Source: Ignavibacteriales bacterium (GTDB lineage Bacteria; Bacteroidota; Ignavibacteria; UBA10030). From it: 53,604 nucleotides of DNA. Shown one piece after another: positions 8,971 to 44,406 of this stretch. The translations under genes were made by a program, and so were the position numbers. Where the stretch lies: contig JACPLA010000081.1 of assembly GCA_016186715.1 (NCBI GenBank), positions 1 to 53,604 on the forward strand, read 5' to 3'. Position 1 is the stretch's first letter, and every line of letters starts with the position of its first letter. The notes beneath the pieces were generated by a model that had not been told where the DNA came from, did no database searches, and was given only the letters and a program-made list of their open reading frames with translations.

Positions 8971-8972
8971 CA

Positions 8973-21113: not shown

Positions 21114-22676
21114 ATGGCATCAGAGGGTGAACTCGTCTTTCGTCCTTACTTTGTTCAATCGGGGGTCGGCCCGCATCTTCTGGATTGGGCCTACGCGTCC
21201 GATGCGAATTGGGATGCGTTTCACTCGGACATTACGGCCGGCCGCGACGGTGTGAGAATCTCCGACACGGAGGGCAGGGAACGGTTTGCCATAGACGTCC
21301 GGTGGAATGTGGAGGGATTCGGCTACATTTTCATCACCGCCGATAACGGAGGAGAATACTACCGGCTGCCCGGCCCCGGGAAGACCGAAACACGGAACCT
21401 GAACTACGAGCTTGCGAACAGCAGGGTCGCGCGCAACCGGCGGCGTTTCGGACTCCACAGGAAAGAGGGATGGAAGCCGTCCAGGGAAGTCGAGCAGCTT
21501 GTCGCACTGTCGGACGGATATTTGAGTGATGCCGCAAAACAGCAGGCAAACCCGGAGCGGTGCGCGGAGTTGTCGCAGAAGTCGCTCCTGTACGCAATGG
21601 TCGTTGCTGAAAAGATCGAGCTCGAAAAGGCGGAGTTAGATATCGCACGCAATGGCTCCAGACCGGACTTTTTTGTTGGATGCGACGCGAGGGGGTATTT
21701 CCAAATGGACGTCGAAAAGTTCTTGGACCTTTTTCCCCAGCTCTTCAATTACGCGACGATCACCCATTACCTTGTGAGCGGCGTCTTTGAGGACTTCGAG
21801 GCCGAGGAGGGAAAAAAGAGGTTCGAGCTCCGGACGGCCTTGTTCAACGAGCTGCGAAGGAGAAACATCGCGGTGGAGGGAAGGCCTCTCTGGTGGTCCT
21901 ACAAAACCACGACGCCGGACTGGTTGCGCAGAAAGAACTTCGACCAGATCAAGATTTACCTGGAAGATCACGTGAGAAAAGTCGTGGGGCATTACGGAGA
22001 AGGAATGTATGCCTGGGAAATCGTCAACGAGTTCCACGACTGGGCCAACGAATGTCAACTGACTCCGGACCAGGCCGTCGAGCTCACAAAACTCGCCTGT
22101 GATGTGGCTCGTGACACGGCGCCTAAAGTCCATCGCCTGATCAACAATTGTTGCCCGTTCGCGGAATATGTCCAGCTGAAGAAATGGACGGACCTTGACG
22201 CTCTGTACCCCCAGCGAACGCCCTGGCAGTTCATGAAAGACCTGACGGATGCGGGGGTGGATTACACAATCACCGGCCAGCAGATGTACTTTCCCTACCG
22301 TGATCTTGCTGACACGATCATCCTCATCGAGCGTCTCGAGACGTTCGGCCGGCCCGTGCAACTGACGGAGGTCGGCGCCTCGTCGGGACCCTCCGCCGAT
22401 TCGATTCATTCCGGCCGCCTGACGATCTCGAACGAACCGTACATCTGGCACCGGCCGTGGGACGAAGAGCTTCAGGCAGACTGGATGGAATGGATGTACA
22501 CCCTCGCCTACAGCAAACCCTTCATTGAAGCGATCAATTGGTACGATTTCGTTGATCCGCATTCATGGATTCCCAATGGGGGGTTTCTCAGGTCGCCAAA
22601 GGGTGAAAAACGCGCGGTGTTTGACCGGCTTTTGAAACTCCAGGAACGATGGAAATCACTTCCGCGAAAACAATGA
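21114..22676 (+). CDS. GH10-like glycoside hydrolase, paralogue 1 (no signal peptide)
   Basis: A 520-residue divergent member of the xylanase family GH10 and first of three tandem paralogues. A strong TAGGAGGA ribosome site at 21103-21110 fixes the ATG at 21114; the upstream open frame lies inside the MFS gene. Residues 1-110 form a conserved N-terminal domain ('GPHLLDWAYASD', 'FGYIFITADNGGEYY'). The barrel has the acid/base E306 in 'YAWEIVNEFHDWA' and the nucleophile E419 in 'VQLTEVGASSG'. The usual GH10 'GHTLVWH' strand is replaced by 'GRPLWWSYK', so the substrate may not be plain xylan. It has no signal peptide, unlike its two neighbours. Confidence 0.78.
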   Translation: MASEGELVFRPYFVQSGVGPHLLDWAYASDANWDAFHSDITAGRDGVRISDTEGRERFAIDVRWNVEGFGYIFITADNGGEYYRLPGPGKTETRNLNYELANSRVARNRRRFGLHRKEGWKPSREVEQLVALSDGYLSDAAKQQANPERCAELSQKSLLYAMVVAEKIELEKAELDIARNGSRPDFFVGCDARGYFQMDVEKFLDLFPQLFNYATITHYLVSGVFEDFEAEEGKKRFELRTALFNELRRRNIAVEGRPLWWSYKTTTPDWLRRKNFDQIKIYLEDHVRKVVGHYGEGMYAWEIVNEFHDWANECQLTPDQAVELTKLACDVARDTAPKVHRLINNCCPFAEYVQLKKWTDLDALYPQRTPWQFMKDLTDAGVDYTITGQQMYFPYRDLADTIILIERLETFGRPVQLTEVGASSGPSADSIHSGRLTISNEPYIWHRPWDEELQADWMEWMYTLAYSKPFIEAINWYDFVDPHSWIPNGGFLRSPKGEKRAVFDRLLKLQERWKSLPRKQ

Positions 22677-24364
22677 AGAAACCGAAACGTGCATACTCGA
22701 GGCGCGACTTCATCGGGACGGCGGCCGGTGCGGGGGCCTTCCTTGCGGCCTCGGGCCTTTCTGCCTTTCCGGCGCCGACAATCCTGACGGCCTCCAGGAC
22801 GCGCCCCTCAATTGCCGCGGGGACCCTGAGATTCCTCCCGCACTACGTCCAGCGGGGTTCGGGCCCTCACCTGCTCGACTGGGCATACGCGTCCGATTCA
22901 AAAGGCGACGCGTTCCGATCGGACATCGCGGCTTCGCGGGACGGACTGCTGCTTTCGGATACGAAGGGGGAAGGACGCTTTGCAGTCAACGTGCGGTGGA
23001 ACGTCGAGGAGTTCGGCTATATTTTCATTACGGCGGACAACGGCGGCGAGTTCTACAAGCTTCCGCCCAACGGGAGGGAACAATCCCTGAACCTTAATTT
23101 CGAGCTGGCAAAAAGCAGGGTCGTGCAAAACAGGACGCGGAGGGCCGGGTTCGAGAAAACCGGTTGGAAACCGTCGCGCGAAACAAAGGCCTATCTTGAC
23201 CTTTCGGAGGACCTGTTCGGCGACGCCCGCCGCTCAACGGGCGAGCCCCGTCGCGGATTGCTGTCCCAGAAGTCACTGACATACGCCATGTGGGCTTCCG
23301 AAATGATGGAGCTCGAAAAAGCCCGGTTCAACATCGAATCGTTGAAGCGGCCCCGTGCGGATTTTTTCTTCGGCTGCGATGCACGGGCGTTCTACCAGAT
23401 GTATCAGGATACATTCCTCGAATTGTTTCCCGAGCTCTTCGACTACGCAATGGTTACCTACGTGATCAAAGGGGACGGAATGATGAGCGATTTCGAGCCG
23501 GTGGAGGGAAAGCGGAACTTCGGGACAAGAGATGTCCTCGTGAGAAAGCTCAGGGAGCGGAATATCACCGTTCAGGGACGGACTCTGTTCTGGTTTTATG
23601 ACGGCGTGACGCCGGATTGGCTCAAACGAAAATCGTTTGAGGAACTGAAGAAGTATGTCGAGCGGCACACGAGGGAAACGATCGCACACTATCCCGAGGA
23701 AATGTTTGGATGGGAGATTTTCAACGAGTTTCATGATTGGGCGGTCGAGGTCGATGTCACGCCGGAGCAAACGGTTGAGCTTGTAAAGCTGTCCTGCGAT
23801 GTGGCGCGGGATACAAATCCGGATTGCCACCGCATCATCAACAATTGCTGCCCGTTCGCGGAATATGTGCAGCTTGGAAAGACATCGGGCGGCGATGCAC
23901 GGTATCCCCAGCGAACGCCGTGGGAATTCACGAAAGACCTCGTGGATGCCGGCGTCGATTTCACCATGCTGGGCCAGCAAATGTACTTTCCGTACCGCGA
24001 CCTGCAGGACATCATGGTCTTCCTGGAGCGAATGGCGGAGTTTCGAAGGCCGGTCCAGTTGTCGGAGGTCGGAGCCCCCGGCGGTCCCACGAACCTCTCA
24101 GTAAAAACCGGCTCGGTTGGATTTCCGGAGGAACCGTTTATCTGGCGACGCCCGTGGGATGAAGAGCTTCAGGCGGACTGGCTTGAAGCGGTTTGCACCC
24201 TCGCCTTCAGCCGTCCCTGGATTGTGAATTTCAGCTGGTTCGACCTCCTCGACCGCGGGGCGTTCCAGAAGAACGGCGGTCTTCTCAGAAATGACAAAGG
24301 TGAAAAGAAAGCCGCCTGGCATCGCTTCAAAAAACTTCAGAATACGTTGAAACAATCGGCATAA
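22673..24364 (+). CDS. GH10-like glycoside hydrolase, paralogue 2 (Tat signal)
   Basis: A 563-residue exported paralogue. The N-terminus carries a twin-arginine signal: 'YSRRDFIGTAAGAGAF' at residues 8-23, followed by an Ala-rich hydrophobic stretch ending near 'SAFPAP'. It shares the N-terminal 'GPHLLDWAYASDS' and 'FGYIFITADNGGEFY' domain, the acid/base motif 'WEIFNEFHDWA' and the nucleophile motif 'VQLSEVGAPGG'. The subsite strand reads 'GRTLFWFYDGVTPDWL'. The ATG at 22673 overlaps the previous stop (ATGA); an in-frame ATG at 22649 with AGGA before it is an alternative. Confidence 0.78.
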   Translation: MKKPKRAYSRRDFIGTAAGAGAFLAASGLSAFPAPTILTASRTRPSIAAGTLRFLPHYVQRGSGPHLLDWAYASDSKGDAFRSDIAASRDGLLLSDTKGEGRFAVNVRWNVEEFGYIFITADNGGEFYKLPPNGREQSLNLNFELAKSRVVQNRTRRAGFEKTGWKPSRETKAYLDLSEDLFGDARRSTGEPRRGLLSQKSLTYAMWASEMMELEKARFNIESLKRPRADFFFGCDARAFYQMYQDTFLELFPELFDYAMVTYVIKGDGMMSDFEPVEGKRNFGTRDVLVRKLRERNITVQGRTLFWFYDGVTPDWLKRKSFEELKKYVERHTRETIAHYPEEMFGWEIFNEFHDWAVEVDVTPEQTVELVKLSCDVARDTNPDCHRIINNCCPFAEYVQLGKTSGGDARYPQRTPWEFTKDLVDAGVDFTMLGQQMYFPYRDLQDIMVFLERMAEFRRPVQLSEVGAPGGPTNLSVKTGSVGFPEEPFIWRRPWDEELQADWLEAVCTLAFSRPWIVNFSWFDLLDRGAFQKNGGLLRNDKGEKKAAWHRFKKLQNTLKQSA

Positions 24365-24444: not shown

Positions 24445-26112
24445 GTGAAACCATATAATCGACGATCGTTCCTCCGTTCCGCCGCACTCGGTGCCGGCGC
24501 GCTTGCATTGAATCCGGTCCTTCGATCCGCTTCCTCCCGGATCATTCGTCAGGCGGGAACAGCAGTGTTCAGGCCGTATCCTCATTCTTTTATGCCTCTC
24601 CTGGATTGGGCGTACGCCGCCGACGAATTCGAAGATCCCTTCGCATCACCGATGACCGTGGGACGCGATGGCATCGCTGTTGACAAGGGTATCGGCAAGA
24701 GGCCGTACAGTGTAAATGCAAGGTGGTATGTGCCGGGATTCGGTTTGGTCTGGCTGTCCGCCGATAATGCAGGGAAAAAATACAGTCATGAAGATGCATC
24801 ACGATCCGGCCCGTTTAATCTGAACTATGAATTTGCCAGAAGCCGTGTCGCGCGGAATGCGGAAGTTGCCGGGCGGTACGAAAAGCAGGGAACGGTGTTT
24901 TCACCGGAAGTGGTGCATCTCAGGCATCTCACAGAAGAGTTGCTCAACGACGCCTTCAAAGCTCTGTCCGACGGTGAGCAATGCGGTGCGATTTCCAACA
25001 AGTGCCTGAACTACGCCCTCTGGGCCGGGGAAAAAATCGAGCTGGAAAAAGCCCGGCAGGACATTGCCCGCATGCAGCGAAAGGACCAAGTGAAGTTCGG
25101 GTGCGAAAGCCGGCAGTACATTTGGGCAAAGTCGGAGGATATGCAGAAGCGCTTCGTCGAAGTAATGAATCACGCCACCGTCACCCATTACATCTGGGAT
25201 ACCTGGTATCCGCTGTTTGAGCCAAGCGAAGGAGTATATAACTGGGGGATCAAGGACGATATTGTGCGGTGGCTGAAGGCAAACAGGATCAGCATCGAAG
25301 GGAGACCGATTGTTTGGTTCCATCCATCAGTGACGCCGGACTGGTTGAAGAACAAGAATTTTGATCAGCTCAAAAAATATGTGGAGAAGCACACGGTTAA
25401 TCTCGTATCGCACTACGGGAACGATCTCGCCGAATGGGAAGTGATAAACGAGTATCACGATTGGGCAAACATCCATAACCATACGCCTGCGCAAATCACG
25501 GAGATCACGCGGCTGGTGTGCGACAAGACGAGGGAGACCAACCCGAAGGTCGGACGCCTGATCAACAATTGCTGTCCGTGGGCCGAATACGCAGCCAGAG
25601 GAAGGATGGCGCGCATGGCCGCAACACGGCCTCTTCGTTCCCCGAGGAAATTCATGCAGGACATCACCGAGGCCGGAGTTGAATACGAGTATCTCGGCAT
25701 CCAGATCTACTTTCCGCAGCGCGACCTTTCGGACATCGTGCGCCTGCTGGAACGGCTTGAACAACTCAACAAGCCGCTGGTCATCACGGAAATAGGAGCG
25801 AGCTCGGATTTCACGGCGCCGTCGAACACTGGTGCAACACGCGGATCGTCCGGCGAACCGTACGCCTGGCACCGGTACTGGGACGACGAGCTCCAGGCCG
25901 ATTGGCTCGAGCAGGTCTATACCATCTACTACAGCAGGCCGACGATCAAAGCGATCAATTGGTATGATTTTTCCGATTTCAGGCCGTTCATTGTCAACGG
26001 AGGACTCATCCGTGAGGACGCCACGCCGAAGCGTTCGTTTGAACGGCTCAAGTCACTCCTGGCTTCGTGGGGAAGATTGCCGGGACAACACCAAGAGGGA
26101 GGCGGAGAATAG
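24445..26112 (+). CDS. GH10-like glycoside hydrolase, paralogue 3 (Tat signal)
   Basis: A 555-residue third paralogue, starting with GTG at 24445 after an AGGAAA ribosome site. The Tat signal is 'YNRRSFLRSAALGAGALAL' (residues 4-22). The N-terminal domain is more divergent ('MPLLDWAYAADE', 'GFGLVWLSADNAGKKY'). The barrel keeps the acid/base in 'WEVINEYHDWA' and nucleophile in 'VITEIGASSD', and its subsite strand reads 'GRPIVWFHPSVTPDWL', keeping a histidine that paralogues 1 and 2 lack. The corrinoid methyltransferase module begins 9 bases downstream. Confidence 0.78.
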   Translation: MKPYNRRSFLRSAALGAGALALNPVLRSASSRIIRQAGTAVFRPYPHSFMPLLDWAYAADEFEDPFASPMTVGRDGIAVDKGIGKRPYSVNARWYVPGFGLVWLSADNAGKKYSHEDASRSGPFNLNYEFARSRVARNAEVAGRYEKQGTVFSPEVVHLRHLTEELLNDAFKALSDGEQCGAISNKCLNYALWAGEKIELEKARQDIARMQRKDQVKFGCESRQYIWAKSEDMQKRFVEVMNHATVTHYIWDTWYPLFEPSEGVYNWGIKDDIVRWLKANRISIEGRPIVWFHPSVTPDWLKNKNFDQLKKYVEKHTVNLVSHYGNDLAEWEVINEYHDWANIHNHTPAQITEITRLVCDKTRETNPKVGRLINNCCPWAEYAARGRMARMAATRPLRSPRKFMQDITEAGVEYEYLGIQIYFPQRDLSDIVRLLERLEQLNKPLVITEIGASSDFTAPSNTGATRGSSGEPYAWHRYWDDELQADWLEQVYTIYYSRPTIKAINWYDFSDFRPFIVNGGLIREDATPKRSFERLKSLLASWGRLPGQHQEGGGE

Positions 26113-26121: not shown

Positions 26122-27270
26122 ATGACATCAAAAGAACGCCTCATGACGGCTTTTCGGCGCGGGAAGGCCGACCATGTTCCCGTTTGCCCCGATATTTCGG
26201 TGATGGTCCCGGCAAAACTGACTGGCCGCCCGTTCTATGAGCTGTTCCTGGACGGCCGGCCACACAACGGATGGACATCTGCGACGTACTCCGAGGCCTA
26301 TGTAAACGCCGTGAAGCACTTCGGCATGGATGGCTGGTACATCTATGGCGGGCTGAAGGAGCTCCGACCCGAAGGTGCGCCGGAGTTCACCGAGGAAATC
26401 GTCGATACCTCCGAGGGAAAACTTGTGAAGCGAAAATGTGTAACGCCGCTTGGCGCGATGACCGAAGAGGAGATGTTCTTCGGGGACGAACCGCCCTGGA
26501 GAGAAGAAAAGCCCATCAAGAGCCTGAAAGAGGACTTCGCGAAATTCAAGCTCTGGATGGGAACCGGGCCCTGGAAATGGGCCGCAGAGTTTGAAGACAG
26601 GCACAGGATCGGCGACCATGGAGTGTATGTGGGGATGATTCCCGTCTTTCAGGACTGGTGGTTTCATTACCGTCACGGTGGGTTCGAACAATGTTTTACG
26701 GATTACCGCGAAGAAGAACGGTTCATGGATGAGGTCCATGAATTCTGGATGGAGTGGGCGCTGGCCTACGTGCGCGCCATGGCGGCGGCAAAGCCGGATG
26801 AAATCATGCTCGGCGGCTCCAGCGCAAGTTTGAGCATCAGCTCGCCGGACGTGTTCCGGAAGTACGAGCTGCCGTTTCTCAAGCAGGCGTCACGTATTTG
26901 CCGGAACGCCGGTATAATTTCGCATTTGCACATTTGCGGCCGCTCCTGGGAGCTGGTCCAGATTGTCGCGGAAGAGACGGATGTCGATGTCATGGAACCG
27001 ATGGAGGAACCCCCGGGGGGGAATGTGGATATTGCGGAAGCGAAGCGGAGAGTGGGTGACCGGCTCTGCATCAAGGGGAATATCAATACGTTCGATTTCA
27101 TGATGAATGCGACGCCCGAACAGGTGGAAGAGAAATGCAAGAGGTTGATCGACGACGTGGCGGCGGACGGCGGATTTGTGCTCTCCACGGGAGATCAGTG
27201 CGGCCGCGACACGCCTCAAGCAAACCTCTTCAAGATGGTTGAAGTTGCAAAGACGTACGGAAAGTACTGA
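26122..27270 (+). CDS. UroD/MtaA-family corrinoid methyltransferase
   Basis: A 382-residue member of the uroporphyrinogen-decarboxylase superfamily, in the branch that moves methyl groups on corrinoid proteins (MtaA/CmuA/MtbA type). The zinc-site pattern His-x-Cys ... Cys of that branch is visible: H270 and C272 in 'ISHLHICGRSW' and C360 in 'LSTGDQCGRDTP'. A true decarboxylase would not need these. It opens a three-gene module with the corrinoid protein (22 bases on) and the MtaB-like gene. It probably moves the methyl group from the corrinoid to an acceptor; in a bacterium tetrahydrofolate is more likely than coenzyme M. Confidence 0.8.
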   Translation: MTSKERLMTAFRRGKADHVPVCPDISVMVPAKLTGRPFYELFLDGRPHNGWTSATYSEAYVNAVKHFGMDGWYIYGGLKELRPEGAPEFTEEIVDTSEGKLVKRKCVTPLGAMTEEEMFFGDEPPWREEKPIKSLKEDFAKFKLWMGTGPWKWAAEFEDRHRIGDHGVYVGMIPVFQDWWFHYRHGGFEQCFTDYREEERFMDEVHEFWMEWALAYVRAMAAAKPDEIMLGGSSASLSISSPDVFRKYELPFLKQASRICRNAGIISHLHICGRSWELVQIVAEETDVDVMEPMEEPPGGNVDIAEAKRRVGDRLCIKGNINTFDFMMNATPEQVEEKCKRLIDDVAADGGFVLSTGDQCGRDTPQANLFKMVEVAKTYGKY

Positions 27271-27292
27271 CCCTCTCAGGAAGGAGTATGAA

Positions 27293-27949
27293 ATGGATCT
27301 GCTTCAGGACATTGCCTTGAACGTGCAGTCCGGATACACGGAAAAAACAAGAAAAGCGGTCGAACAGGCGGTTGCAGAGGGAATCCCGGCAAACGATATT
27401 CTGCACAAAGGCCTTATTGCAGGAATGAATGTCGTGGCGGAGCGGTTCAAGACGGGCCAAATGTTTCTGCCGGAAGTGCTTGCCGTCGCCGGGGCCATGA
27501 AAGCCGGAATGACGATCGTAAGACCGCTCCTGGAAATGACGAATCATGAATCCCTGGGCAAGATCGTCATCGGGACGGTCCGCGGCGATATGCATGACAT
27601 CGGAAAGAACCTCGTCGCTATCATGCTCCAGGGCGCCGGATTTGACGTTGTGGACCTGGGCACGGATGTCCGGGCGGATAAGTTCATCGAGGCCGTGGAG
27701 AGGGAACATCCGGACATCATCGGGATGTCTGCCCTCTTAACAACGACCATGGTCCATATGAAGGGAGTCATCGAAGCCCTGGAGAAGAAAAACCTCCGGG
27801 AAAAGGTCAAGGTGATCATCGGCGGCGCGCCGATCTCCAGAAACTACGCGCAAGAGATCAGGGCTGACGGATACGCGCGTGACGCCGCGACGGCAGTCGA
27901 CCTGGTGCGAACGCTCCTCAATTCAACTCGCGCGACGGCGGCAGTATGA
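27293..27949 (+). CDS. mtaC: MtaC-like corrinoid (cobalamin-binding) methyl carrier protein
   Basis: A 218-residue methyl carrier. Residues 1-85 form the helical cap domain. Residues 88-210 form the B12-binding Rossmann domain with 'GDMHDIGKNLVAIMLQGAGF', where H101 is the lower cobalt ligand, plus 'IIGMSALLTTTM' (S146) and 'KVIIGGAPIS' for the nucleotide tail. An AGGAG at 27282-27286 fixes the ATG at 27293; the longer open frame runs into the upstream gene. Its stop overlaps the MtaB-like start by ATGA, as expected for two subunits made together. Confidence 0.9.
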   Translation: MDLLQDIALNVQSGYTEKTRKAVEQAVAEGIPANDILHKGLIAGMNVVAERFKTGQMFLPEVLAVAGAMKAGMTIVRPLLEMTNHESLGKIVIGTVRGDMHDIGKNLVAIMLQGAGFDVVDLGTDVRADKFIEAVEREHPDIIGMSALLTTTMVHMKGVIEALEKKNLREKVKVIIGGAPISRNYAQEIRADGYARDAATAVDLVRTLLNSTRATAAV

Positions 27950-29325
27950 GAAACCGGTTTACAACAGCCGCCCTGGATTCCGGGGCGCTTCTCTTTGGGA
28001 CGGCGAAATTCCCGCTCACCCGCCGGGGCGTGACGATCGGCGGCGGCTCGGTGATCCCGGAGATCAACTTCACCCTCCCTCCCATGGATGTCGAACAAGG
28101 TTCGATGGAGGAGGTGAAAAAGATCTATTTGGAGATGATTGACAGCGTGTGCAGGAGGGCAGTTGAGCTTCATCAGCGCGAGATCATCGTGGAGTTCGAG
28201 CTTCTCCCCGAAATGACGTTGAACCCGGTTTGGGGTGAGGAAATCACCGCTCTGCTTCAACGCTCCCTTGAGGAGTTCCTGGACCGGGATGGCCTCCAAT
28301 CTCTTCTTCGTATAACGCCGGTGGATATACGCGAAACCAGCAAGCCCCCGCGCCGGAGAGAAGGTCGCGAAGTGGACACATTGTTTGATGCCTTTCGCCG
28401 TTGTGCCCGTGCGGGAGGCGACATGCTCTCCATTGAATCGACAGGCGGAAAAGAAGTGACCGATCCCTCGATCATAGCGGGAGACCTTCGCGGAATTATT
28501 TTCGGGGCCGCCATTCTGGGTTCGGCGGACATGGAGTACCTCTGGGAGCAGATCTGCTCCATTGGGAAAGAAACTGGATCGATTCCGGCGGGCGACACTG
28601 CGTGCGGAATCGGAAACACCGCGATGATCCTGGCGGACCAGGGATATGTACCGAAAGTTTTTGCCACTGTCGTACGGGCCGTAACGGCTGTGAGGTCGCT
28701 TGTGGCGTACGAGGTGGGCGCCGTCGGGCCAGGAAAGGACTGCGGCTACGAGAACGCGATTCTCAAGGCAATCACCGGATTTCCCATGTCGCTTGAGGGC
28801 AAGTCAGCGGCATGCGCACATTTCAGCGCCATCGGAAACATCGCGGGCGCATATGCCGACCTCTGGAGCAACGAATCGGTTCAGCAGGTGAAACTGCTGT
28901 CGGGCATGGCTCCCGTGGTGTCCATGGAACAACTGATCTATGACTGCCGGCTTTTTAACGCCGCCGTCAACAAGGGAAGCGCGGGTGATTTGCGGGACCT
29001 GCTGGTGGACTCCGATGCATTGCTCGATCCCCAGGCATTCATCCTGAGGCCGGATGTGGTCAGGTCCCTCGCGAAAGCGATCGTTGCAGAACGTGAGGAC
29101 TATGGAAGAGGTGTCCGCGTTGCATGGGAGGCAGTCCGGCTCATGAAAGACGCTGCCTCGCACGGAGAGCTGCTGATATCCGATCGCGAAGGTTCATGGC
29201 TTGAGCGGATGGAATTGGAATTGAACGGGTTGCCGGCAACGTCAATGCAGTTTGTCTCAGAAGAAACTGAACGATGGAGTGATGCGTTTGACTGCACTCA
29301 ATACCTTGTCGAGACCCATGCTTAG
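27946..29325 (+). CDS. mtaB: MtaB-like methanol:corrinoid methyltransferase
   Basis: A 459-residue substrate-activating methyltransferase that takes a methyl group from methanol, or a related methoxy compound, onto the corrinoid of MtaC. Family blocks are strong: 'GGDMLSIESTGGKE', 'GDTACGIGNTAMILA', 'GPGKDCGYENAILKAI' and 'GKSAACAH'. By counting, E164, C220 and C266 fall where the Methanosarcina barkeri enzyme has its zinc ligands (E164, C220, C269, from memory). Length matches the archaeal protein. No reductive activator of the RamA type is in the window. Finding it inside a glycosidase operon is unusual and is discussed as a finding. Confidence 0.88.
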   Translation: MRNRFTTAALDSGALLFGTAKFPLTRRGVTIGGGSVIPEINFTLPPMDVEQGSMEEVKKIYLEMIDSVCRRAVELHQREIIVEFELLPEMTLNPVWGEEITALLQRSLEEFLDRDGLQSLLRITPVDIRETSKPPRRREGREVDTLFDAFRRCARAGGDMLSIESTGGKEVTDPSIIAGDLRGIIFGAAILGSADMEYLWEQICSIGKETGSIPAGDTACGIGNTAMILADQGYVPKVFATVVRAVTAVRSLVAYEVGAVGPGKDCGYENAILKAITGFPMSLEGKSAACAHFSAIGNIAGAYADLWSNESVQQVKLLSGMAPVVSMEQLIYDCRLFNAAVNKGSAGDLRDLLVDSDALLDPQAFILRPDVVRSLAKAIVAEREDYGRGVRVAWEAVRLMKDAASHGELLISDREGSWLERMELELNGLPATSMQFVSEETERWSDAFDCTQYLVETHA

Positions 29326-29421: not shown

Positions 29422-30177
29422 ATGAAAGTCTATCTTTCGACCTGGTCGATTCATCGTCTGTTCTTTCAGAAACTTCTTCGCATCTCGCAATTGCCGGCGC
29501 TGGCGCATTCGCTCGGATTCGACGGCGTCGAGCTTGAGGATATCTGGTTTCCGTCTGCGAATGACCGTATTGCGCACACTCTGAAGTCGGAGGGCCGTCG
29601 GGCCGGGATGCCGATCCTCATCGCCGTGAGTAACGATTTCACGGTTGCTGGAGAAGAGTTTCCTGCACAGGTCCGGCATATGCGAAAATTCCTGCGCCTT
29701 GCGTCGAGGATTGGATCGGGTATTGTACGCGTGCTGGTCGGCTCGTCTCGCTCGAGTATCAACAGGATGCCGCAAGTCGTGGCTGCATTTAGGGAGATTG
29801 TTCCCATGGTGGATGAACTTGGACTCCGGCTTGCGGTGGAAAATCATGACCGGCTCAGCAGGGATCCCGAAAACCTGCTTGGCATCCTTGAACGCGTCGG
29901 ATCAAGGCGCCTCGGAATTTGTCTTGACCTGGGAAACCTGAACCCGCGGACCCGGTACGCGTCAATTGAGAAACTCGCACCGAGGGCCATGGTCGTTCAC
30001 GCGAAGACCTATGGATTCAGGCCGGATGGAAACGAGCGCTCGATCGATTACCGCCGGTGCATAAGGATCCTTCGGAAGAATGGTTTCAGGGGGCCGGTCG
30101 TGGCGGAATATAACGGGCCGGGAGATCAAATCATGGGATCGCTGAAAACACGCTTGCTTGTACGGAGGTTCCTGTGA
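29422..30177 (+). CDS. Sugar phosphate isomerase/epimerase family protein
   Basis: A 251-residue xylose-isomerase-like TIM barrel, shorter than the paralogue at 16691. Metal-site residues: E140 in 'LRLAVENHDRL', D169 in 'GICLDLGNLNPR', H193 in 'MVVHAKTYGF' and E229 in 'VVAEYNGPG'. The stop overlaps the next GTG start by 4 bases. The 96 bases upstream of its ATG hold nothing I recognise. Substrate unknown; it may act on the sugar released after demethylation or after oxidation. Confidence 0.8.
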   Translation: MKVYLSTWSIHRLFFQKLLRISQLPALAHSLGFDGVELEDIWFPSANDRIAHTLKSEGRRAGMPILIAVSNDFTVAGEEFPAQVRHMRKFLRLASRIGSGIVRVLVGSSRSSINRMPQVVAAFREIVPMVDELGLRLAVENHDRLSRDPENLLGILERVGSRRLGICLDLGNLNPRTRYASIEKLAPRAMVVHAKTYGFRPDGNERSIDYRRCIRILRKNGFRGPVVAEYNGPGDQIMGSLKTRLLVRRFL

Positions 30178-31220
30178 AAATTCTGGTCATCGGCGGAACA
30201 GGGTTTATCAGCGGCCGGCTTGTGAAGAAGCTTCTGGCCAAAGGGCACACGGTGTCAGTGGTGACCAGACGGCACACAGCGCCGTCGGCGTTCGACCCGA
30301 CGAAGGTTCGGTTTCTCACGGCCGACCGGACCAAAGAAGCGGAATTAAAGAACGTGCTGGGAAATCAGACCTTTGACGCCGTGTACGACATGATTGACTA
30401 CGAACCCGGCGAATCCGAGGCGGCTGTTCGGATCTTCAAAGGGCGGACGGGACGGTTTATTCATTGCAGTACGGTTTCGGTTTATATGGTCTCGAATGAT
30501 ATCCGGTGTCCCGTCACTGAGGACCAGGACCGCACGCCGCTCATGAAGCATTTTCCCCGAAATCCGTTCGGAATGGACTACGGGATCAGAAAGCGGAAGT
30601 GTGAAGAGGTTTTATGGGAAGCCCATGATGCGAAAACATTTCCGGTGAGCATGCTGCGACCAACGTTCGTTTGCGGTCCGGGAGACCCGGCAAAGCGGGA
30701 TTTTTTCTGGATCGAGCGGATACTTGACGGGCAACCCCTCCTCGTTCCCGGAACCGGCGATCATGCGTTCCAGCAGGTGTACGTGGAAGATGTCGCGGTG
30801 GCTTTTGCGAGGCTTTTGGAACGCGACGATTCCATCGGACATGCATTCAATGTGGCGGCGGAAGAAGTGATGTCGCTGAACGATTATCTTCGACGACTGT
30901 CGGAACTTCTGAACAGGAGCCCTGAGATCATTCATGTCGATCAGGAAATGTTCGACACGCTTCCCTTTAGCGTGTCAAGAAACGGAGATGTGTTTCCGTT
31001 CAACACGCGCCGCACGGCATTCTTCAGTCTCGGCAGGATCAAGGAGCGCCTGGGGTTCCGCGCGACGGAGTTTTCCGAATGGATGCCCGAAACGATCGCT
31101 TGGTTCAGGGAGAAACAAAAGGGGCATTCGAATGGCTATGAGCACAGGCATGCGGAAATTGCCTTTGCTGTTCGGTGGAAACAGGGTATTGAGCAGCTCC
31201 GAAAAGGAATGAATGTGTGA
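30174..31220 (+). CDS. NAD-dependent epimerase/dehydratase (extended SDR)
   Basis: A 348-residue short-chain dehydrogenase/reductase of the extended type. The N-terminal dinucleotide motif is 'ILVIGGTGFISGRLV' (the third glycine is Ser13), followed by 'GRFIHCSTVSVYMV' and the catalytic YxxxK in 'MDYGIRKRKCEEV'. The C-terminal half has 'HAFQQVYVEDVAVAFARLL', typical of nucleotide-sugar epimerases and related isoflavone-reductase-like enzymes. The GTG start overlaps the previous stop and is preceded by GGAGG at 30164-30168; the stop overlaps the next GTG. Confidence 0.85.
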   Translation: MKILVIGGTGFISGRLVKKLLAKGHTVSVVTRRHTAPSAFDPTKVRFLTADRTKEAELKNVLGNQTFDAVYDMIDYEPGESEAAVRIFKGRTGRFIHCSTVSVYMVSNDIRCPVTEDQDRTPLMKHFPRNPFGMDYGIRKRKCEEVLWEAHDAKTFPVSMLRPTFVCGPGDPAKRDFFWIERILDGQPLLVPGTGDHAFQQVYVEDVAVAFARLLERDDSIGHAFNVAAEEVMSLNDYLRRLSELLNRSPEIIHVDQEMFDTLPFSVSRNGDVFPFNTRRTAFFSLGRIKERLGFRATEFSEWMPETIAWFREKQKGHSNGYEHRHAEIAFAVRWKQGIEQLRKGMNV

Positions 31221-32416
31221 CGTCCGTCAGGAACATAGTGGAACGTGCCGCTGAACGATTCAACGGAATCATTCCCCTCGAACCCGCCTGGGTGGCCAGG
31301 GATTTTCTTCCACCGGGCCAGCGGCTCGGATGCTCCGAGGATCAATACGAGCTGGGACCCCGTGGGGGAATTTCCGAACGATGGCTGGCTTCCACCACAG
31401 AAGCGGACAACAGAGTGAAAGTGCCGGATGAAGGGTTGAGCTTTCTGGCGCTGGACTCAAAAGACCGGCTTACCCTCCGCGAAGCCGTGAAGGAAGCCCC
31501 CGATTTGATCCTTGGAACAGGGTACAGCAGAACCCATCCGCGCGGGCTCGATAGACTGGCGAAGGTCTTCGATTACAAATTTCGCATACCCTTCCACCTG
31601 CACCAGAGGAAGCACCATGCGGCTCTGGTCGGCCGGAATCCGAAAGAAGAGGCGTACTATTTTCCGGAAGGACTTCCGATGGGTGAAGAGCCCGAGACCT
31701 ATCTTGGCGTCCATCCTTCCATTGTCGAGGAAAAGAACTACGAAATTCTTCTTCCATATCTCGAGCAATGGAACAGTGACCTGATTTTGCGCCATTCAAA
31801 GGCCTATAAGCTTGTGGCCGGAGACGGCTGGCACATCCCGGCAGGGATCCTTCATGCGCCGGGCTCGGCGCTCACAATAGAACTGCAGGAGGACTCGGAT
31901 GTTTTTGCCATGCTTCAGGCGATGGCGGGGGGAAGGGTCATTTCAAAGGACCTTCTCCATAAAGATGTCAGGCCGGAGGACTGGAAAAAACATGGTGAAA
32001 GGATTATTCTGGAATTGATCGATTGGGAAGCCAACGGAGACCCCTACTTCTACGAGAATCACCATACTCCCCCGGTCTCAATTCGGAAATCCACCGACGG
32101 AGAGGAAGAATGGATATTCTACAATACAACGAGATTCAGCGGAAAGAAACTCGTGGTGAAAGCAGGCCGTTCGACGAAAAGCCGGGATGCGGGCGTGTAC
32201 AGTCTCTTTGTCTGGCGCGGCCGGGGGGAGTTCGACGGACATAAGCTTGAAGCGGGAAAGCCGGGCAGCGATGAGGTTATCGTCTGTCATTCAAAAGCCG
32301 TTGAGGAGATCATTGTGAAAAATACTGGACGGGAAGATCTGATCCTCTTCAAGTTCTTCGGCCCCGATGTGAACCTGGATGTTCCAATGTTGAAGCAATA
32401 CGGAAAGAAGAGATAG
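31217..32416 (+). CDS. Class I phosphomannose-isomerase-like cupin protein
   Basis: A 399-residue two-cupin protein resembling type I mannose-6-phosphate isomerases. The metal-binding block is 'FRIPFHLHQRKHHAALVGR' with the HxH pair, followed by an 'EEAYYFP' acidic stretch and the second-shell block 'GDGWHIPAGILHAPGSA'. The C-terminal third is another beta-barrel ('SLFVWRGRGEFDGHKLEAG'). It differs from ordinary ManA in lacking the helical insertion pattern I would expect, so an isomerase for another sugar is possible. GTG start overlaps the upstream stop. Confidence 0.65.
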   Translation: MTSVRNIVERAAERFNGIIPLEPAWVARDFLPPGQRLGCSEDQYELGPRGGISERWLASTTEADNRVKVPDEGLSFLALDSKDRLTLREAVKEAPDLILGTGYSRTHPRGLDRLAKVFDYKFRIPFHLHQRKHHAALVGRNPKEEAYYFPEGLPMGEEPETYLGVHPSIVEEKNYEILLPYLEQWNSDLILRHSKAYKLVAGDGWHIPAGILHAPGSALTIELQEDSDVFAMLQAMAGGRVISKDLLHKDVRPEDWKKHGERIILELIDWEANGDPYFYENHHTPPVSIRKSTDGEEEWIFYNTTRFSGKKLVVKAGRSTKSRDAGVYSLFVWRGRGEFDGHKLEAGKPGSDEVIVCHSKAVEEIIVKNTGREDLILFKFFGPDVNLDVPMLKQYGKKR

Positions 32417-33838: not shown

Positions 33839-34597
33839 ATGGCTGCAACAAGGACCGTTAAGGTCACCGAAGAACAAAAGAAACAATACAGGGATGAAGG
33901 GTTCTTCATTCTGAGGGATGCAATTCCGCAAAGTTGGCTCGAGACGATCAGGAAAGAATGCGGGGAATGCATACAAGAGCAGGAAAAGGAGATGGACAGA
34001 CAGGGGACGGACGTCCTGAACCTGAGCAGGCGCAACAGCAGGTATTTCGTTTTCCTGGCATACAAGGACCGTCCCCAGCTCGGGAAGTTCATTTTCAGCG
34101 ACCTGATGGAGGAGATCTGCAAGGCGACGATCGGAGATACCGCGTATCTCTTTTGGGAGCAGTTTGTGGTGAAGGGGACGGACAAGAAGGGCGCCGAGTT
34201 TGGGTGGCATCAGGACTCCGGCTATGTTGATCGGGACCACAATCCGTACGTCAACGCCTGGATTCCCCTTGATGATGTCAACGAAAAAAACGGCACGATC
34301 TACCTCCTCCCCTACGACCGCGCCGGGACACGCGTGAAGGTCGAACACAAACCCGTGGAGGGTTCGAACGATCGGGTGGGATATTTCGGAACGGACCCCG
34401 GAGTACCTGCGGTGATGAAAGCCGGGTCCATCGCAGTGTTCTCGAGCGTGACCTTCCACAGGTCCGGCGCCAACAACACGAAGAACATGCGACGGGCCTA
34501 TGCCATCCAATACTCGCCTGAGATTATCCATGAGCCCGACGGATCCCTCAAAGGATTGGATGATGAATTTCTGAAGGATGGAGTGAGGGTCAGATAA
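33839..34597 (+). CDS. Phytanoyl-CoA dioxygenase (PhyH) family Fe(II)/2-oxoglutarate oxygenase
   Basis: A 252-residue double-stranded beta-helix oxygenase. The iron triad is present: H124 and D126 in 'FGWHQDSGYVDRD' and H207 in 'SVTFHRSGANN'; an Arg near 219 ('NMRRAYAIQYS') would bind 2-oxoglutarate. A clear AAGGAGG at 33827-33833 fixes the ATG at 33839. A 12-bp perfect palindrome (ATATGATCATAT, 33786-33797) lies in the leader and could be a protein-binding site. The enzyme needs O2, which is notable beside a corrinoid system usually linked to anaerobes. Substrate unknown. Confidence 0.85.
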   Translation: MAATRTVKVTEEQKKQYRDEGFFILRDAIPQSWLETIRKECGECIQEQEKEMDRQGTDVLNLSRRNSRYFVFLAYKDRPQLGKFIFSDLMEEICKATIGDTAYLFWEQFVVKGTDKKGAEFGWHQDSGYVDRDHNPYVNAWIPLDDVNEKNGTIYLLPYDRAGTRVKVEHKPVEGSNDRVGYFGTDPGVPAVMKAGSIAVFSSVTFHRSGANNTKNMRRAYAIQYSPEIIHEPDGSLKGLDDEFLKDGVRVR

Positions 34598-34638: not shown

Positions 34639-36165
34639 ATGAGCTATCTCATCGGGCTTGACGTCGGGACCTCTGGCGTGAAGGCGATCCTGATCAACCC
34701 CCGGGGAAGGGTCGTTGCCTCAGCATTCGGGGAATATCCGATGGCGACGCCAAAGCCGCTTTGGGCTGAGCAGAACCCCGAGGCATGGTGGCGTGCCGCG
34801 ATGAGCACTCTCCGGCGGATTGTGAAGATTGCCGGCGGTTCCACAAAGATCGCCGGGCTTGGTCTCACGGGGCAAATGCACGGCCTTGTTCTTCTGGATA
34901 GCAGGGGGAAGGTGCTCCGTCCCTGCATCATGTGGAACGACCAGAGAACAGCAGAAGAATGCTCTGAAATCACGTCGATGGTGGGCGAAGACCGCCTCCT
35001 GGCGATGACAGGGAATCCGGTATTGCCGGGATTCACTGCCCCTAAGATTCTTTGGGTCAGGAAACACGAACCGGCAGTGTATGGGAACACGTCTCATGTC
35101 CTTCTGCCAAAAGACTATGTGCGATATCGCCTGACGGGAGAGTATGCTTCGGAGATGTCCGATGCGTCCGGCACCTCGCTGTTGGACGTCAGGAATCGGC
35201 GCTGGTCGAATGAAATCCTGCAGGCGCTTAGAATTCCGGCGGAATGGTTGCCGTCGCTCGTGGAGTCACCGGGGCTGACGGGCGGCGTCAGCCGCGTTGC
35301 CGCTCAAGCAACGGGGCTGAGAGAAGGCACGCCGGTTGTCGGCGGGGGCGGTGATCAGGCCGCGGGCGGTGTGGGATCGGGAACTGTGGCGGAGGGAACG
35401 ATCTCGGTGACCATTGGCACGTCGGGTGTCGTGTTTGCCCATAGCAATACGTACCGGGTCGAGCAGAAAGGACGGCTGCATGCGTTTTGCCATTCCGTCC
35501 CGGGCGCCTGGCACCTTATGGGGGTGACCCTCTCTGCGGGCGGATCGCTGCGATGGGTCCGCGATACGCTCTGCGCGGAAGAAATCCTTCTTGCAAAAAA
35601 ACGGCGCGTCGATCCCTATGAGATCATGATGGCCTCTGCCGCCCGCAGTCCGGCCGGAAGCGAGGGTCTGCTGTTCCTCCCATACCTTTCCGGAGAGCGT
35701 ACGCCGTACCCTGATCCACACGCACGCGCAGCGTTCATCGGACTGACCGTCAGACATGGAAAATCTCATATGATCCGGTCTGTCCTCGAAGGTGTCGCGT
35801 TCAGTCTCAGGGATTGTCTTGAGTTGATGAAAGCAATGGACATTCAGGCGGACGATGTGCGCGTGTCGGGCGGTGGAGCGCGGAGCAAGCTCTGGTGCCG
35901 GATCCTCGCTGATGTCCTCGGGACCCGTCTTTCCACGGTGACATCGACGGAAGGCGCGCCGTACGGAGCCGCCTTGCTCGCCGGCGTCGGTGTCGGAATC
36001 TTTGGTTCGGTCACGGAAGCATGCAGCAGGACCGTTCGAGTTGCCTCATCCACGGAGCCGGGCCGCGATAGAGTGCTTTACGACGAATTGTACCAGATCT
36101 ATCGCCAATCCTATCCGCAGAATCAACCAATATTTCACTCCCTTTCGAATCTCTCGAACAAATGA
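34639..36165 (+). CDS. xylB: Xylulokinase (FGGY family)
   Basis: Phosphorylates D-xylulose to xylulose 5-phosphate for the pentose phosphate pathway. The 508-residue protein has the N-terminal phosphate motif 'IGLDVGTSGVKAILI' (D8), the XylB-specific 'GLGLTGQMHGLVLLD' and 'CIMWNDQRTAEEC', and the catalytic Asp in 'GGGGDQAAGGVGSG'. The C-terminal FGGY half includes 'LEGVAFSLRDCLELM' and 'VSGGGARSKLWCRILADVLG'. It matches a xylan-type substrate for the GH10-like enzymes; a xylose isomerase is not obvious in the window, unless one of the two TIM-barrel isomerases does this job. The stop overlaps the next ATG. Confidence 0.9.
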   Translation: MSYLIGLDVGTSGVKAILINPRGRVVASAFGEYPMATPKPLWAEQNPEAWWRAAMSTLRRIVKIAGGSTKIAGLGLTGQMHGLVLLDSRGKVLRPCIMWNDQRTAEECSEITSMVGEDRLLAMTGNPVLPGFTAPKILWVRKHEPAVYGNTSHVLLPKDYVRYRLTGEYASEMSDASGTSLLDVRNRRWSNEILQALRIPAEWLPSLVESPGLTGGVSRVAAQATGLREGTPVVGGGGDQAAGGVGSGTVAEGTISVTIGTSGVVFAHSNTYRVEQKGRLHAFCHSVPGAWHLMGVTLSAGGSLRWVRDTLCAEEILLAKKRRVDPYEIMMASAARSPAGSEGLLFLPYLSGERTPYPDPHARAAFIGLTVRHGKSHMIRSVLEGVAFSLRDCLELMKAMDIQADDVRVSGGGARSKLWCRILADVLGTRLSTVTSTEGAPYGAALLAGVGVGIFGSVTEACSRTVRVASSTEPGRDRVLYDELYQIYRQSYPQNQPIFHSLSNLSNK

Positions 36166-37118
36166 AAACCAGAAAGCTGGGCACAAATGGCCCTGATCTC
36201 ACCGTGATAGGGTTTGGCGCTTGGGCCATTGGCGGACCGTGGGTCTATGGATGGGGGCCGGTCGACGACCGGGAATCCATCGCGGCGATTCACGCTGCGC
36301 TCGATGCGGGGATCAACTGGATTGACACGGCTGCGGCGTATGGGTTCGGACATTCGGAAACCATTGTGGGAAGGGCCCTGAAAGGAATGCGCGGAAAGGC
36401 CTTTGTCGCGACAAAAGGCGGATTGGTGCCAGATGGCAAAGGAGACGTGTACAGGAATTCGAGGCCGGAAAGCATTCGCACGGAAATCGAAGAAAGTCTC
36501 CTGAGGCTTCAAACCGATCATGTCGATCTCTACCAGATTCACTGGCCCGATGTGGGTGTGCCTTTCGAAGATTCATGGGAAACAATGGTTCGCCTTCGCG
36601 AGGAGGGGAAAGCGCGGTTTATAGGGGTCAGCAATTATGATGTGGCGGCGCTGGAGCGATGTCATGCGATCTCACCCGCCCAGTCCCTTCAACCTCCGTA
36701 CAGCATGTTAACCCGGGAGGTCGAATCCGAAATCCTTCCATACTGCCTGAAACGGGGAATCGGCGTCCTGGCATATAGTCCGATGCAATCAGGGCTCCTC
36801 TCGGGAACATTTGACAAGAGCCGGCTCGCACCGGACGATTGGAGGCACAAGTTTCACTGGTTCCAGGAGCCGAACCTTTCGGCAGCGCTGGAATTCGTGG
36901 AAGATTTAAGGCCTATGGCGGCCAAGTACGAAGCCACTGTGGGCCAGCTTGCGATCCAGTGGGTTTTGGCAGACCCAGCTGTCACGTGTGCCATTGTGGG
37001 AGCCCGCCGCCCGCGTCAGATCATTGAAACTATCCGCGCGGCTGATCTTCTTCTCTCGCGTGAGGATTTGGATTATATCCGTCACCTCATGAAACAGCGG
37101 TTTGATGCTAAAGACTAA
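36162..37118 (+). CDS. Aldo/keto reductase
   Basis: A 318-residue NAD(P)-dependent reductase. Tetrad residues: D55 and Y60 in 'NWIDTAAAYGFGHSE', K85 in 'FVATKGGLVP' and H127 in 'DLYQIHWPD'. C-terminal cofactor region 'TCAIVGARRPRQIIE'. It is translationally coupled to xylulokinase by ATGA and is the last gene of the long + strand series. It differs from the AKR at 10804, so the two likely have different substrates. Confidence 0.87.
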   Translation: MKTRKLGTNGPDLTVIGFGAWAIGGPWVYGWGPVDDRESIAAIHAALDAGINWIDTAAAYGFGHSETIVGRALKGMRGKAFVATKGGLVPDGKGDVYRNSRPESIRTEIEESLLRLQTDHVDLYQIHWPDVGVPFEDSWETMVRLREEGKARFIGVSNYDVAALERCHAISPAQSLQPPYSMLTREVESEILPYCLKRGIGVLAYSPMQSGLLSGTFDKSRLAPDDWRHKFHWFQEPNLSAALEFVEDLRPMAAKYEATVGQLAIQWVLADPAVTCAIVGARRPRQIIETIRAADLLLSREDLDYIRHLMKQRFDAKD

Positions 37119-37146: not shown

Positions 37147-38442
37147 ATGAAATATCTTGTTCGTCTTGCCCTGTTCGGCCTTATCTCCTTGAGTTGTTCC
37201 CGGGATGAACAAAAGGAGAACGGGCGCGTCGAAATCGTATTCTGGCATAGCTTTGTTGCGGCCACGATTCCTGCCCTCGACGAACTGATCGGGATGTTTG
37301 AACACGAGCATCCGGCCATCCAGATCAAAGCCGAGTACATACCGACCGGTGATGCGCTTGTTCAGAAACTGATTGCCGCCGTGCAAAGCAACACCGCGCC
37401 GGATATCTCCTGGATCCATGCGGATTTTCTCGACAAGCTGGTTGAAGCCGATGCGATTTATCCCATGGCGGATTTCATGAACGGGCCTGACGGGCTTGGG
37501 GTGGAAGACGTTCGGGACATCGTTCCTGCTTCCCTTGAAGCGGGTCGATGGCGGGGACAACAGTTTGCCCTTCCGATGGAGGCGACATCGCTGGCTCTTT
37601 TTTACAACCGCGATCTTTTCCGGAAGGCGGGTTTGAGTCCTGAGCGTCCACCCCGAACATGGGAGGAACTGCACGCCTTTGCTCGTCAGCTTACCGTTGA
37701 TAATGACGGTGACGGCAAGATCGACCAGTATGGATTTTTTGTCCCCGTGTTTCCCTCGTCCGGTCCCCTTAACATCTGGATGAACCTTCAGTGGGCCCCG
37801 TTCCTCTGGCAGGCCGGCGGTGACGAGCTGAGTGCAGATGGTTCCAGGGTGCTGTTTGACGGCCCAGCGGGGATTGCTGCGCTGGTGTTCTGGAAGAAAC
37901 TCTACTCCGACCTTGATTTCAGGAGTTTTGGGCTCTCGCATGACATGGGGTTTGCTTCGGGTAAACTCGGAATGATCCTCGACGGGCCATGGGATCTCCC
38001 CAAATTTCGTGAGCTCAAGAATATCGATTGGATGGTTGCACCTCTCCCCTCGGGGCCCGGGGGGAAGGCCACCTACATTGCTGGAGAACAACTGGCGATC
38101 TTCAGGCAAAGCAGGCATCCCCGTGAAGCATGGACATTTGTTCGGTGGGTGCTGGAGCCGCGCGTGCAGGCCTCGTTCTCCAGAAGTTCGGGGTACCTGC
38201 CCGTAAGGAAATCTGTTCTCCGGCTCGAACCCTACAGGGAATTTCTCAGGCGGGACAGTGTCATGCGGGTTTTTGTTGATCAGATGAACGTCGGGAGGGC
38301 CCGGCGCGCACCCGACCGTTATCGCGTGGAGATCAACAGGTTTCTTGCAGAGGCCATTGAGAGGGCAACGTTGGGAAACGAAGATCCATCCAAGGTTCTT
38401 GGAGAAGCTGCTGCAAAAGCGAATGCGGTCCTTGCAAGATGA
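37147..38442 (+). CDS. ABC-type sugar-binding lipoprotein (family 1)
   Basis: A 431-residue extracytoplasmic solute-binding protein. The lipobox is 'LISLSCSRD', with the modified Cys near residue 17. The mature start 'VEIVFWHSFVAATIPALDEL' and 'FEHEHPAIQIKAEYIPTGDA' are typical of maltose/oligosaccharide-type binding proteins, as is 'AEQLAIFRQSRHP'-like C-terminal sequence near 318 ('GEQLAIFRQSRHP'). No permease or ATPase genes follow; the next ~1.3 kb is decayed, so the rest of the transporter was either lost or lies elsewhere. Confidence 0.87.
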   Translation: MKYLVRLALFGLISLSCSRDEQKENGRVEIVFWHSFVAATIPALDELIGMFEHEHPAIQIKAEYIPTGDALVQKLIAAVQSNTAPDISWIHADFLDKLVEADAIYPMADFMNGPDGLGVEDVRDIVPASLEAGRWRGQQFALPMEATSLALFYNRDLFRKAGLSPERPPRTWEELHAFARQLTVDNDGDGKIDQYGFFVPVFPSSGPLNIWMNLQWAPFLWQAGGDELSADGSRVLFDGPAGIAALVFWKKLYSDLDFRSFGLSHDMGFASGKLGMILDGPWDLPKFRELKNIDWMVAPLPSGPGGKATYIAGEQLAIFRQSRHPREAWTFVRWVLEPRVQASFSRSSGYLPVRKSVLRLEPYREFLRRDSVMRVFVDQMNVGRARRAPDRYRVEINRFLAEAIERATLGNEDPSKVLGEAAAKANAVLAR

Positions 38443-41993: not shown

Positions 41994-42069
41994 CGCCAGC
42001 CGGATTTCTTGATTCATGTTCAAATACTTGGTACCATTCGATTCATTGGATTATCCCAAGGAGGTTTTC

Positions 42070-42939
42070 ATGCCCAGGATCGTCCGCGGTGGACTTATTC
42101 AGTGCTCGCTCTCCGAATCGACCGAAAAGCCGATTGATACGATAAAAAAATCGATGATCGAGCGGCACCTTGCGCTCATCGAAGAGGCCGGGAAAAAGGG
42201 GGTGCAAATCCTCTGTCTTCAGGAGCTGTTCTACGGGCCATATTTTTGTGCTGAACAGAAGACCAAATGGTACGCCATGGTCGAACGCATTCCGGACGGG
42301 CCGACGATCAAACTGATGCAGGAGTATGCAAGAAAATACAAAATGGTGATGATTGTCCCCGTGTACGAAGAAGAAATGACCGGAGTGTACTACAATACTG
42401 CCGCCGTTCTTGATGCCGATGGTACTTACCTTGGCAAATACCGCAAACATCACATCCCCCAGGTCGACCCCGGGTTCTGGGAAAAGTTCTACTTCAAACC
42501 GGGAAACCTCGGATACCCTGTTTTCAAAACCCGATATGCCCAGGTGGGGGTCTATATTTGCTACGATCGCCATTTTCCCGAAGGCGCCAGAGTTCTGGGT
42601 CTGCACGGGGCGGAAATCGTCTTCAATCCGTCCGCCACCGTGGCAGGGCTGTCTGAATATCTCTGGGAGTTGGAGCAACCAGCCCATGCCGTTGCAAACG
42701 GGTATTTCATCGGCGCGATCAACAGGGTGGGCAAGGAACCTCCGTGGAATATCGGCGAATTCTACGGGAAGAGCTATTTCTGCAATCCACGGGGAAAAAT
42801 CATTGCCCAGGCAGGCCGGGATAAGTCAGAACTTGTCGTTGCCGATTTGAACCTGGACGAAATTCAAGAGGTAAGATCGGTGTGGCAGTTCTTCCGGGAC
42901 CGAAGGCCTGAGTCATACCGGGACCTCGTTGAAACCTAG
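42070..42939 (+). CDS. Beta-ureidopropionase / N-carbamoyl-beta-alanine amidohydrolase (nitrilase superfamily)
   Basis: Hydrolyses N-carbamoyl-beta-alanine to beta-alanine, CO2 and ammonia, the third step of reductive pyrimidine breakdown. The catalytic triad is visible: E52 in 'LCLQELFYGPYFC', K126 in 'LGKYRKHHIPQ' and C164 in 'VYICYDRHFPEGAR'. Length (289 residues) fits the family. AAGGAGG at 42058-42064 fixes the ATG at 42070; the frame is open to an ATG at 42016 without a ribosome site. N-carbamoylputrescine amidase is a close relative, but the neighbouring dihydropyrimidinase and PreT/PreA genes favour ureidopropionase. Confidence 0.87.
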   Translation: MPRIVRGGLIQCSLSESTEKPIDTIKKSMIERHLALIEEAGKKGVQILCLQELFYGPYFCAEQKTKWYAMVERIPDGPTIKLMQEYARKYKMVMIVPVYEEEMTGVYYNTAAVLDADGTYLGKYRKHHIPQVDPGFWEKFYFKPGNLGYPVFKTRYAQVGVYICYDRHFPEGARVLGLHGAEIVFNPSATVAGLSEYLWELEQPAHAVANGYFIGAINRVGKEPPWNIGEFYGKSYFCNPRGKIIAQAGRDKSELVVADLNLDEIQEVRSVWQFFRDRRPESYRDLVET

Positions 42940-42945
42940 CTTTAC

Positions 42946-43000
42946 AATGTGCAATGAGCAATCAAATTGATAATTGCAAACTGCCAATTGACAATTGAAA
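42946..43000. repeat. AATTG-rich dispersed repeat, copy 1
   Basis: The gap between the amidohydrolase and aminotransferase genes is made of short variants of CAATTG / GCAAT (for example 'CAATGTGCAATGAGCAATC' and 'CCAATTGACAATTG') that can pair with each other in many registers. The same kind of sequence fills 47672-47800. It replaces a normal leader, so the aminotransferase ATG at 43004 lacks a clear ribosome site. Confidence 0.55.
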
Positions 43001-43003
43001 ACC

Positions 43004-44344: not shown

Positions 44345-44350
44345 ATGGAG

Positions 44351-44406
44351 GTCGGATCTCCTCGCCAGCCTTTTCGAACCCTCCAAGGCGGGCCGGCAGA
44401 TCCGAC
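44351..44406. repeat. Long imperfect hairpin
   Basis: A 56-base inverted repeat between the aminotransferase and preT genes. The outer arms are GTCGGATCT (44351-44359) and AGATCCGAC (44398-44406), perfect over 9 bp. After a symmetric 4-base mismatch (cctc/cggc), the inner arms GCCAGCCTT (44364-44372) and AAGGCGGGC (44385-44393) pair with one mismatch around a 12-base loop. No T-run follows, so it is more like a REP-type palindrome than an intrinsic terminator. Confidence 0.5.

Follow-up and report, generated by a model that had tools for sequence, protein, structure and literature searches.

A corrinoid methyltransferase module in a xylan-type glycan locus of an Ignavibacteriales bacterium and its possible role in removing methyl groups from sugars

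The stretch of DNA analysed here (the window, 53,604 nucleotides on contig C63) belongs to an Ignavibacteriales genome of 2.39 Mb in 145 contigs that is 94.6% complete. Within it three GH10-like glycosidase genes (GH10a, GH10b and GH10c) are followed on the same strand by genes for a UroD-superfamily protein (26122..27270, + strand, 382 amino acids), an MtaC-type corrinoid protein (27293..27949, +, 218 amino acids) and an MtaB-family methyltransferase (27946..29325, +, 459 amino acids). A gap of 9 bp separates GH10c from the UroD gene and one of 22 bp the UroD gene from mtaC, with mtaC and mtaB overlapping by 4 bp. The original prediction, made from the nucleotide sequence, that three coupled genes directly follow three GH10-like genes was borne out by this spacing and by the Pfam domains of the encoded proteins. 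A recent foreign origin of the module was rejected, its GC content and GC at third codon positions (GC3) being like those of the neighbouring genes.

MtaB is encoded by a single-copy gene in the host, as determined by genome search, and matches PF12176 over its whole length (510 bits against a cut-off of 25, E 1e-152) as well as the Methanosarcina barkeri enzyme (2i2x_A, E 6e-87), scoring 406 bits against the methanol-specific NCBIfam model NF040651, which is under the cut-off of 720. The zinc ligands E164, C220 and C266, predicted to be intact, are identical in all 85 MtaB sequences compared. In the same alignment the clade of the window MtaB alone has replaced three near-invariant residues (L188 by A, T or V; F222 by I; Y37 by I or L), of which residue 222 is near the zinc ligand C220 in sequence, and from the barrel topology we infer that residues 37, 188 and 222 line the pocket. 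In the M. barkeri enzyme itself these three columns hold I, I and Q, respectively. A separate origin of the MtaB found in a related locus, L029, was unsupported, a tree grouping the window clade with L029 and L095 being as good as the free tree (p-AU 0.51). In MtaC both B12-binding domains were matched (PF02607 and PF02310), and the residues D99, H101, D102 and G104 of the DxHD..G motif are invariant in eight sequences, upholding the prediction of an intact cobalamin ligand at H101.

The third protein of the module departs from the expectation of an MtaA. The UroD-superfamily protein matches PF01208 in its C-terminal half (82 bits), scores 87 bits against the NCBIfam MtaA/CmuA family (cut-off 235) and 59 bits against the NCBIfam MtaA model (cut-off 400), and in a fold comparison is about 17% identical to Methanosarcina mazei MtaA. 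The metal site had been predicted as H270, C272 and C360; H270 and C272 are present, but in the alignment with methanogen MtaA (4ay7) the column of the third zinc-binding Cys is occupied by Asp358, with Cys360 lying two residues on. Together with Q359 these four residues are invariant within the subfamily of window-type UroD proteins. With such low identity, scores far under the MtaA cut-offs and Asp358 replacing the third zinc Cys, the identification of the UroD protein as MtaA was rejected. Its predicted fold nevertheless has 4ay7 MtaA as best match, followed by UroD, with methionine synthases and betaine-homocysteine methyltransferase among the lower matches; CdmB was not among the 50 fold matches listed, and a profile of the wider UroD set matched CdmB less well than MtaA. 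Because the closest matches are MtaA and then UroD, the fold was rejected as a means of deciding between a second methyltransferase and a substrate demethylase, and the protein may be either. Window-type UroD proteins (>600 bits) occur in three genomes of the phylum sample, all of them MtaB-positive, against 5 of 396 genomes that have MtaB (PF12176) overall, a co-occurrence that is not an independent count because the three genomes are related. They are also found in the MtaB-bearing loci L023, L024 and L029.

The genes surrounding the module predict xylan-type glycan catabolism, on the strength of GH10 proteins with catalytic Glu motifs and a xylulokinase above its cut-off. GH10a (21114..22676, +; PF00331, 52 bits) has WEIVNE and TEVG motifs with no signal peptide seen; GH10b (22649..24364, +; PF00331, 44 bits; WEIFNE) and GH10c (24445..26112, +; PF00331, 57 bits) both have Tat-like N-termini. 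The acid/base Glu motif (WEI/WEV..NE) is present in all three, the nucleophile Glu motif is TEV/TEI in GH10a and GH10c and, as read from sequence, LSEV in GH10b, and GH10c matches GH10 xylanases in the PDB with E-values as low as 1e-10. Downstream of mtaB on the + strand lie genes for a xylose-isomerase-like TIM barrel (AP_endonuc_2; 29422..30177; PF01261, 94 bits), an NAD-dependent epimerase/dehydratase (30174..31220; PF01370, 104 bits), a phosphomannose-isomerase-like cupin termed cupinX (31217..32416), a PhyH-type Fe(II)/2-oxoglutarate dioxygenase (33839..34597; PF05721, 87 bits), the xylulokinase XylB (34639..36165; TIGR01312, 568 bits against a cut-off of 380), an aldo/keto reductase (36162..37118; PF00248, 265 bits) and an extracellular solute-binding protein (37147..38442; PF01547, 137 bits). 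CupinX has no Pfam or NCBIfam match (a related protein of genome G200 has MPI_cupin_dom), and its predicted model was too poor for use (pLDDT 40). A Pfam scan of the window genes revealed no pectin or glucuronoyl methylesterase, leaving the suggestion that methanol derives from methyl esters without local support.

Comparison with related loci suggests how the module relates to its surroundings. The UroD gene directly follows GH10c in three MtaB-positive lineages (the window, L024 and L029), such that the predicted co-occurrence with glycosidases in other genomes was confirmed by the GH10-UroD junction in L024 and L029. In L025 cupinX and the module form a four-gene unit, and in L023 cupinX adjoins mtaB. 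Relatives of cupinX are present in 19 of 396 phylum genomes, and a search with cupinX recovered relatives of the locus that are free of MtaB. Six loci (L135, L136, L138, L139, L140 and L141) are without the UroD-mtaC-mtaB module, and their genomes gave no PF12176 match and no full-length window-type UroD. These six share GH10a, GH10c, GH13, epimerase, GH2, cupinX, a small cupin and the aldo/keto reductase, together with a flavodoxin, an ABC ATPase, PhyH, a nucleoside hydrolase and the solute-binding protein, and four of the six also have XylB. The window locus is without the GH13, GH2, flavodoxin, small cupin and nucleoside hydrolase genes. Identity between the two versions of the locus is 69-72% for the PhyH dioxygenase, 50-55% for the epimerase/dehydratase and 50-57% for the solute-binding protein. 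Because the junction recurs in L024 and L029 and six relatives have the locus without the module, the module is probably an optional add-on to an otherwise conserved xylan-type locus. The distant cupinX relatives that were examined (L142-L146) belong to other sugar loci, alongside DUF4432 and Gfo/Idh-type genes.

A scan of the genome collection confirmed 497 MtaB relatives, the best 80 of which were kept for locus comparisons and include representatives from Verrucomicrobia, Chloroflexota, Planctomycetota and Acidobacteriota. The statement in the original prediction that such modules are known from methanogens and acetogens was thus too narrow, the 497 relatives being spread over many bacterial phyla. 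Most of the best 80 loci are small mtaCB units or a lone mtaB, in some cases accompanied by CobW-like or activator genes. MtaB was seen inside glycan operons in the window, L024, L029, L095, G200 and the gut Bacteroidales loci L026, L030 and L071. In G200 (L013:2763-19563) a long operon containing GH38, PfkB, a DeoC-type aldolase and a phosphomannose-isomerase-like cupin closes with a window-type UroD gene, mtaC and mtaB. In the gut Bacteroidales (L026:1-17600, L030:1-17400 and L071:700-15500) mtaC, mtaB and a UroD gene lie amid SusC/SusD-like, SusE, GH13, GH3-like and GH127 genes, accompanied by a stand-alone MetH-type activation domain (PF02965), and RACo was not found in these genomes. The UroD proteins of the gut Bacteroidales have Cys at the third ligand column, as in methanogen MtaA. 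These loci are a second, separate glycan context for MtaB.

The fate of the methyl group was approached through the activation and acceptor enzymes of the host. RACo (PF14574) was not found in the host (94.6% complete) nor in the four other genomes of the locus group, and in the window group PF02965 was confined to MetH, no stand-alone activation domain of the MetH type being found. A PF00809 search of the host for a folate-type MTII gave only MetH and FolP, the latter identified by its MGILNVTPDSFSDGG signature, with none in the operon. MTHFR is present in the host, the scanned copy being fused to a homocysteine methyltransferase domain, but of the six genomes with window-type UroD three lack it, two of these three being of unknown completeness. 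As a physiological unit the module therefore does not deserve the description "complete", with neither RACo nor a folate-type MTII found in the host. As for the corrinoid activation and folate C1 pathways proposed as a check, MTHFR and MetH are in place in the host, but RACo is missing from all five genomes of the locus group, a dedicated MTII was not found and MTHFR is patchy, so that this check speaks in part against the original prediction. The same findings left recovery of the methyl group into folate C1 metabolism unsupported, and folate was rejected as a conserved methyl fate; the locus may remove methyl groups, as distinct from recovering them.

We tentatively regard O-demethylation of a sugar that the locus releases as the most likely function of the module, a reading of the sequences that the comparison of loci and the lack of a folate route led us to prefer. 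An O-methylated sugar, the presumed substrate, would donate its methyl group to the Co(I) corrinoid of MtaC, on which both MtaB and the UroD-type protein would act as metal-dependent methyltransferases. Under one assignment MtaB would demethylate the sugar and the UroD protein would methylate a thiol, and under the other the UroD protein would demethylate the sugar and MtaB acting in reverse would release methanol. The final acceptor would probably be a thiol (on the UroD side) or water (reversed MtaB, with methanol as the product) rather than tetrahydrofolate, because no bacterial folate MTII and no RACo were found. Re-reduction of Co(II) without RACo might be performed by another system, at a guess one serving MetH. 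Several observations weigh against sugar demethylation. To our knowledge all MtaB proteins characterised to date act on methanol, and the zinc site of the window MtaB is unchanged; the altered pocket that sugar substrates had been predicted to need is only hinted at by the clade-specific substitutions at L188 and F222. The locus itself demands no changed pocket, because in the MtaB of L029, which comes from a locus of this kind, positions 188 and 222 have retained the residues that are standard in bacteria. The four-gene unit of L025 has no glycosidase beside it, most of the best 80 MtaB loci have no glycan genes in the mtaB operon, and oxidative removal of a methyl group could be the work of the PhyH dioxygenase, which both versions of the locus have.

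Plain methanol use is less likely but was graded a serious rival, with MtaB methylating MtaC from free methanol, the UroD protein passing the methyl group to a thiol (e.g., homocysteine) or a carrier and the glycan locus being merely where methanol is likely to occur. The whole-length match of MtaB to the methanol enzyme and its invariant zinc site fit this explanation, as does a UroD model nearest to MtaA with methionine synthases and betaine-homocysteine methyltransferase among its lower matches, whereas no methylesterase was seen in the window, searches of the host gave neither RACo nor a bacterial folate MTII, and the particular association with cupinX and GH10c would go unexplained. The MtaB methanol reaction is reversible, and one form of the sugar demethylation reading is hydrolysis of the methyl ether, in which the UroD protein would be the sugar O-demethylase and reversed MtaB would transfer the methyl group to water, methanol leaving by a route independent of both folate and RACo. 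This form is improbable, no system of such design being known and the UroD fold being closest to MtaA with CdmB absent from the 50 matches listed, even though the superfamily includes the O-demethylases MtvB, OdmB, VdmB and MtoB (PMC13222342), the metal site is not that of MtaA, the host yielded no folate acceptor enzyme and half of the six genomes are without MTHFR. The least probable explanation is that the module supplies methyl groups for methionine or some other biosynthetic methylation, having travelled with the sugar locus by chance; the host MetH and fused homocysteine methyltransferase/MTHFR would accord with such a role, as would the location of the L025 unit away from glycosidases, but several genomes share the GH10c-UroD junction and the association with cupinX.

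The closest known systems share parts of this arrangement. The methanogen MtaABC of M. barkeri has the same MtaB zinc ligands (39% identity), an MtaC-type corrinoid protein and, as a third component, MtaA, the closest fold to that predicted for the UroD protein here. It differs in that the UroD protein shares only about 17% identity with MtaA and carries Asp358 in the third zinc-ligand column, and in that the system described here is bacterial, lies inside a glycan operon and has no RACo-type activator found in the host. In acetogens (Moorella thermoacetica and Acetobacterium) MtaB and MtaC are homologous to those of the window, MtaB being 46% identical to that of Acetobacterium bakii, and MtaA is a 29.7 kDa protein that methylates tetrahydrofolate (PMC13391211). 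In contrast, no folate-type MtaA was found here beyond FolP and MetH, and the mtaB operons of A. bakii and C. luticellarii are without glycan genes. The UroD-superfamily O-demethylases and haloalkane methyltransferases (MtvB, OdmB, VdmB, MtoB and CdmB) likewise pair a UroD fold with a corrinoid protein (PMC13222342), but they work without MtaB, the bacterial ones give the methyl group to tetrahydrofolate via a folate MTII, and CdmB is zinc-free whereas the UroD protein here keeps H270 and C272 plus D358/C360. The gut Bacteroidales loci also have MtaB, MtaC and a UroD protein inside a polysaccharide locus, and differ in the MtaA-like third-column Cys, the stand-alone MetH-type activation domain and the glycosidases.

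The protein families involved are already known. No example of MtaB and MtaC paired with a UroD protein other than MtaA within a GH10/XylB locus was found in the open-licence literature searched, nor did it yield a report of glycan loci that contain MtaB or of sugar demethylation by a corrinoid system. O-methylated sugars are found in xylans and algal glycans, and demethylation of 6-O-methyl-galactose by a P450 is known from porphyran degraders. Corrinoid methyl ether hydrolysis, if true, would be the oxygen-independent counterpart of that reaction. The sugar demethylation route found in the literature searched is oxidative, by cytochrome P450 (PMC10033563), and a B12 route in glycan operons would, if true, account for how O-methylated sugars can be opened up under oxygen-free conditions. 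At least one group of the many MtaB homologues from non-methanogenic, non-acetogenic bacteria would then also have a role. With six otherwise equal loci that do not carry the module, the hypothesis is open to a direct test.

Further genes of the window lie outside the glycan locus. Upstream (5716-10797) are genes for a GH106-like rhamnosidase, a ribokinase and a D-ribose pyranase. At 42016-53594 the genes jointly resemble a reductive pyrimidine catabolism cluster, with CN_hydrolase, class III aminotransferase and Fer4_20/pyridine-nucleotide oxidoreductase assigned by Pfam and dihydroorotate-dehydrogenase-, dihydropyrimidinase-, NCS1-permease- and aldehyde-dehydrogenase-like genes recognised by eye only. 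An IS200-like transposase open reading frame is present at 49321-49779.

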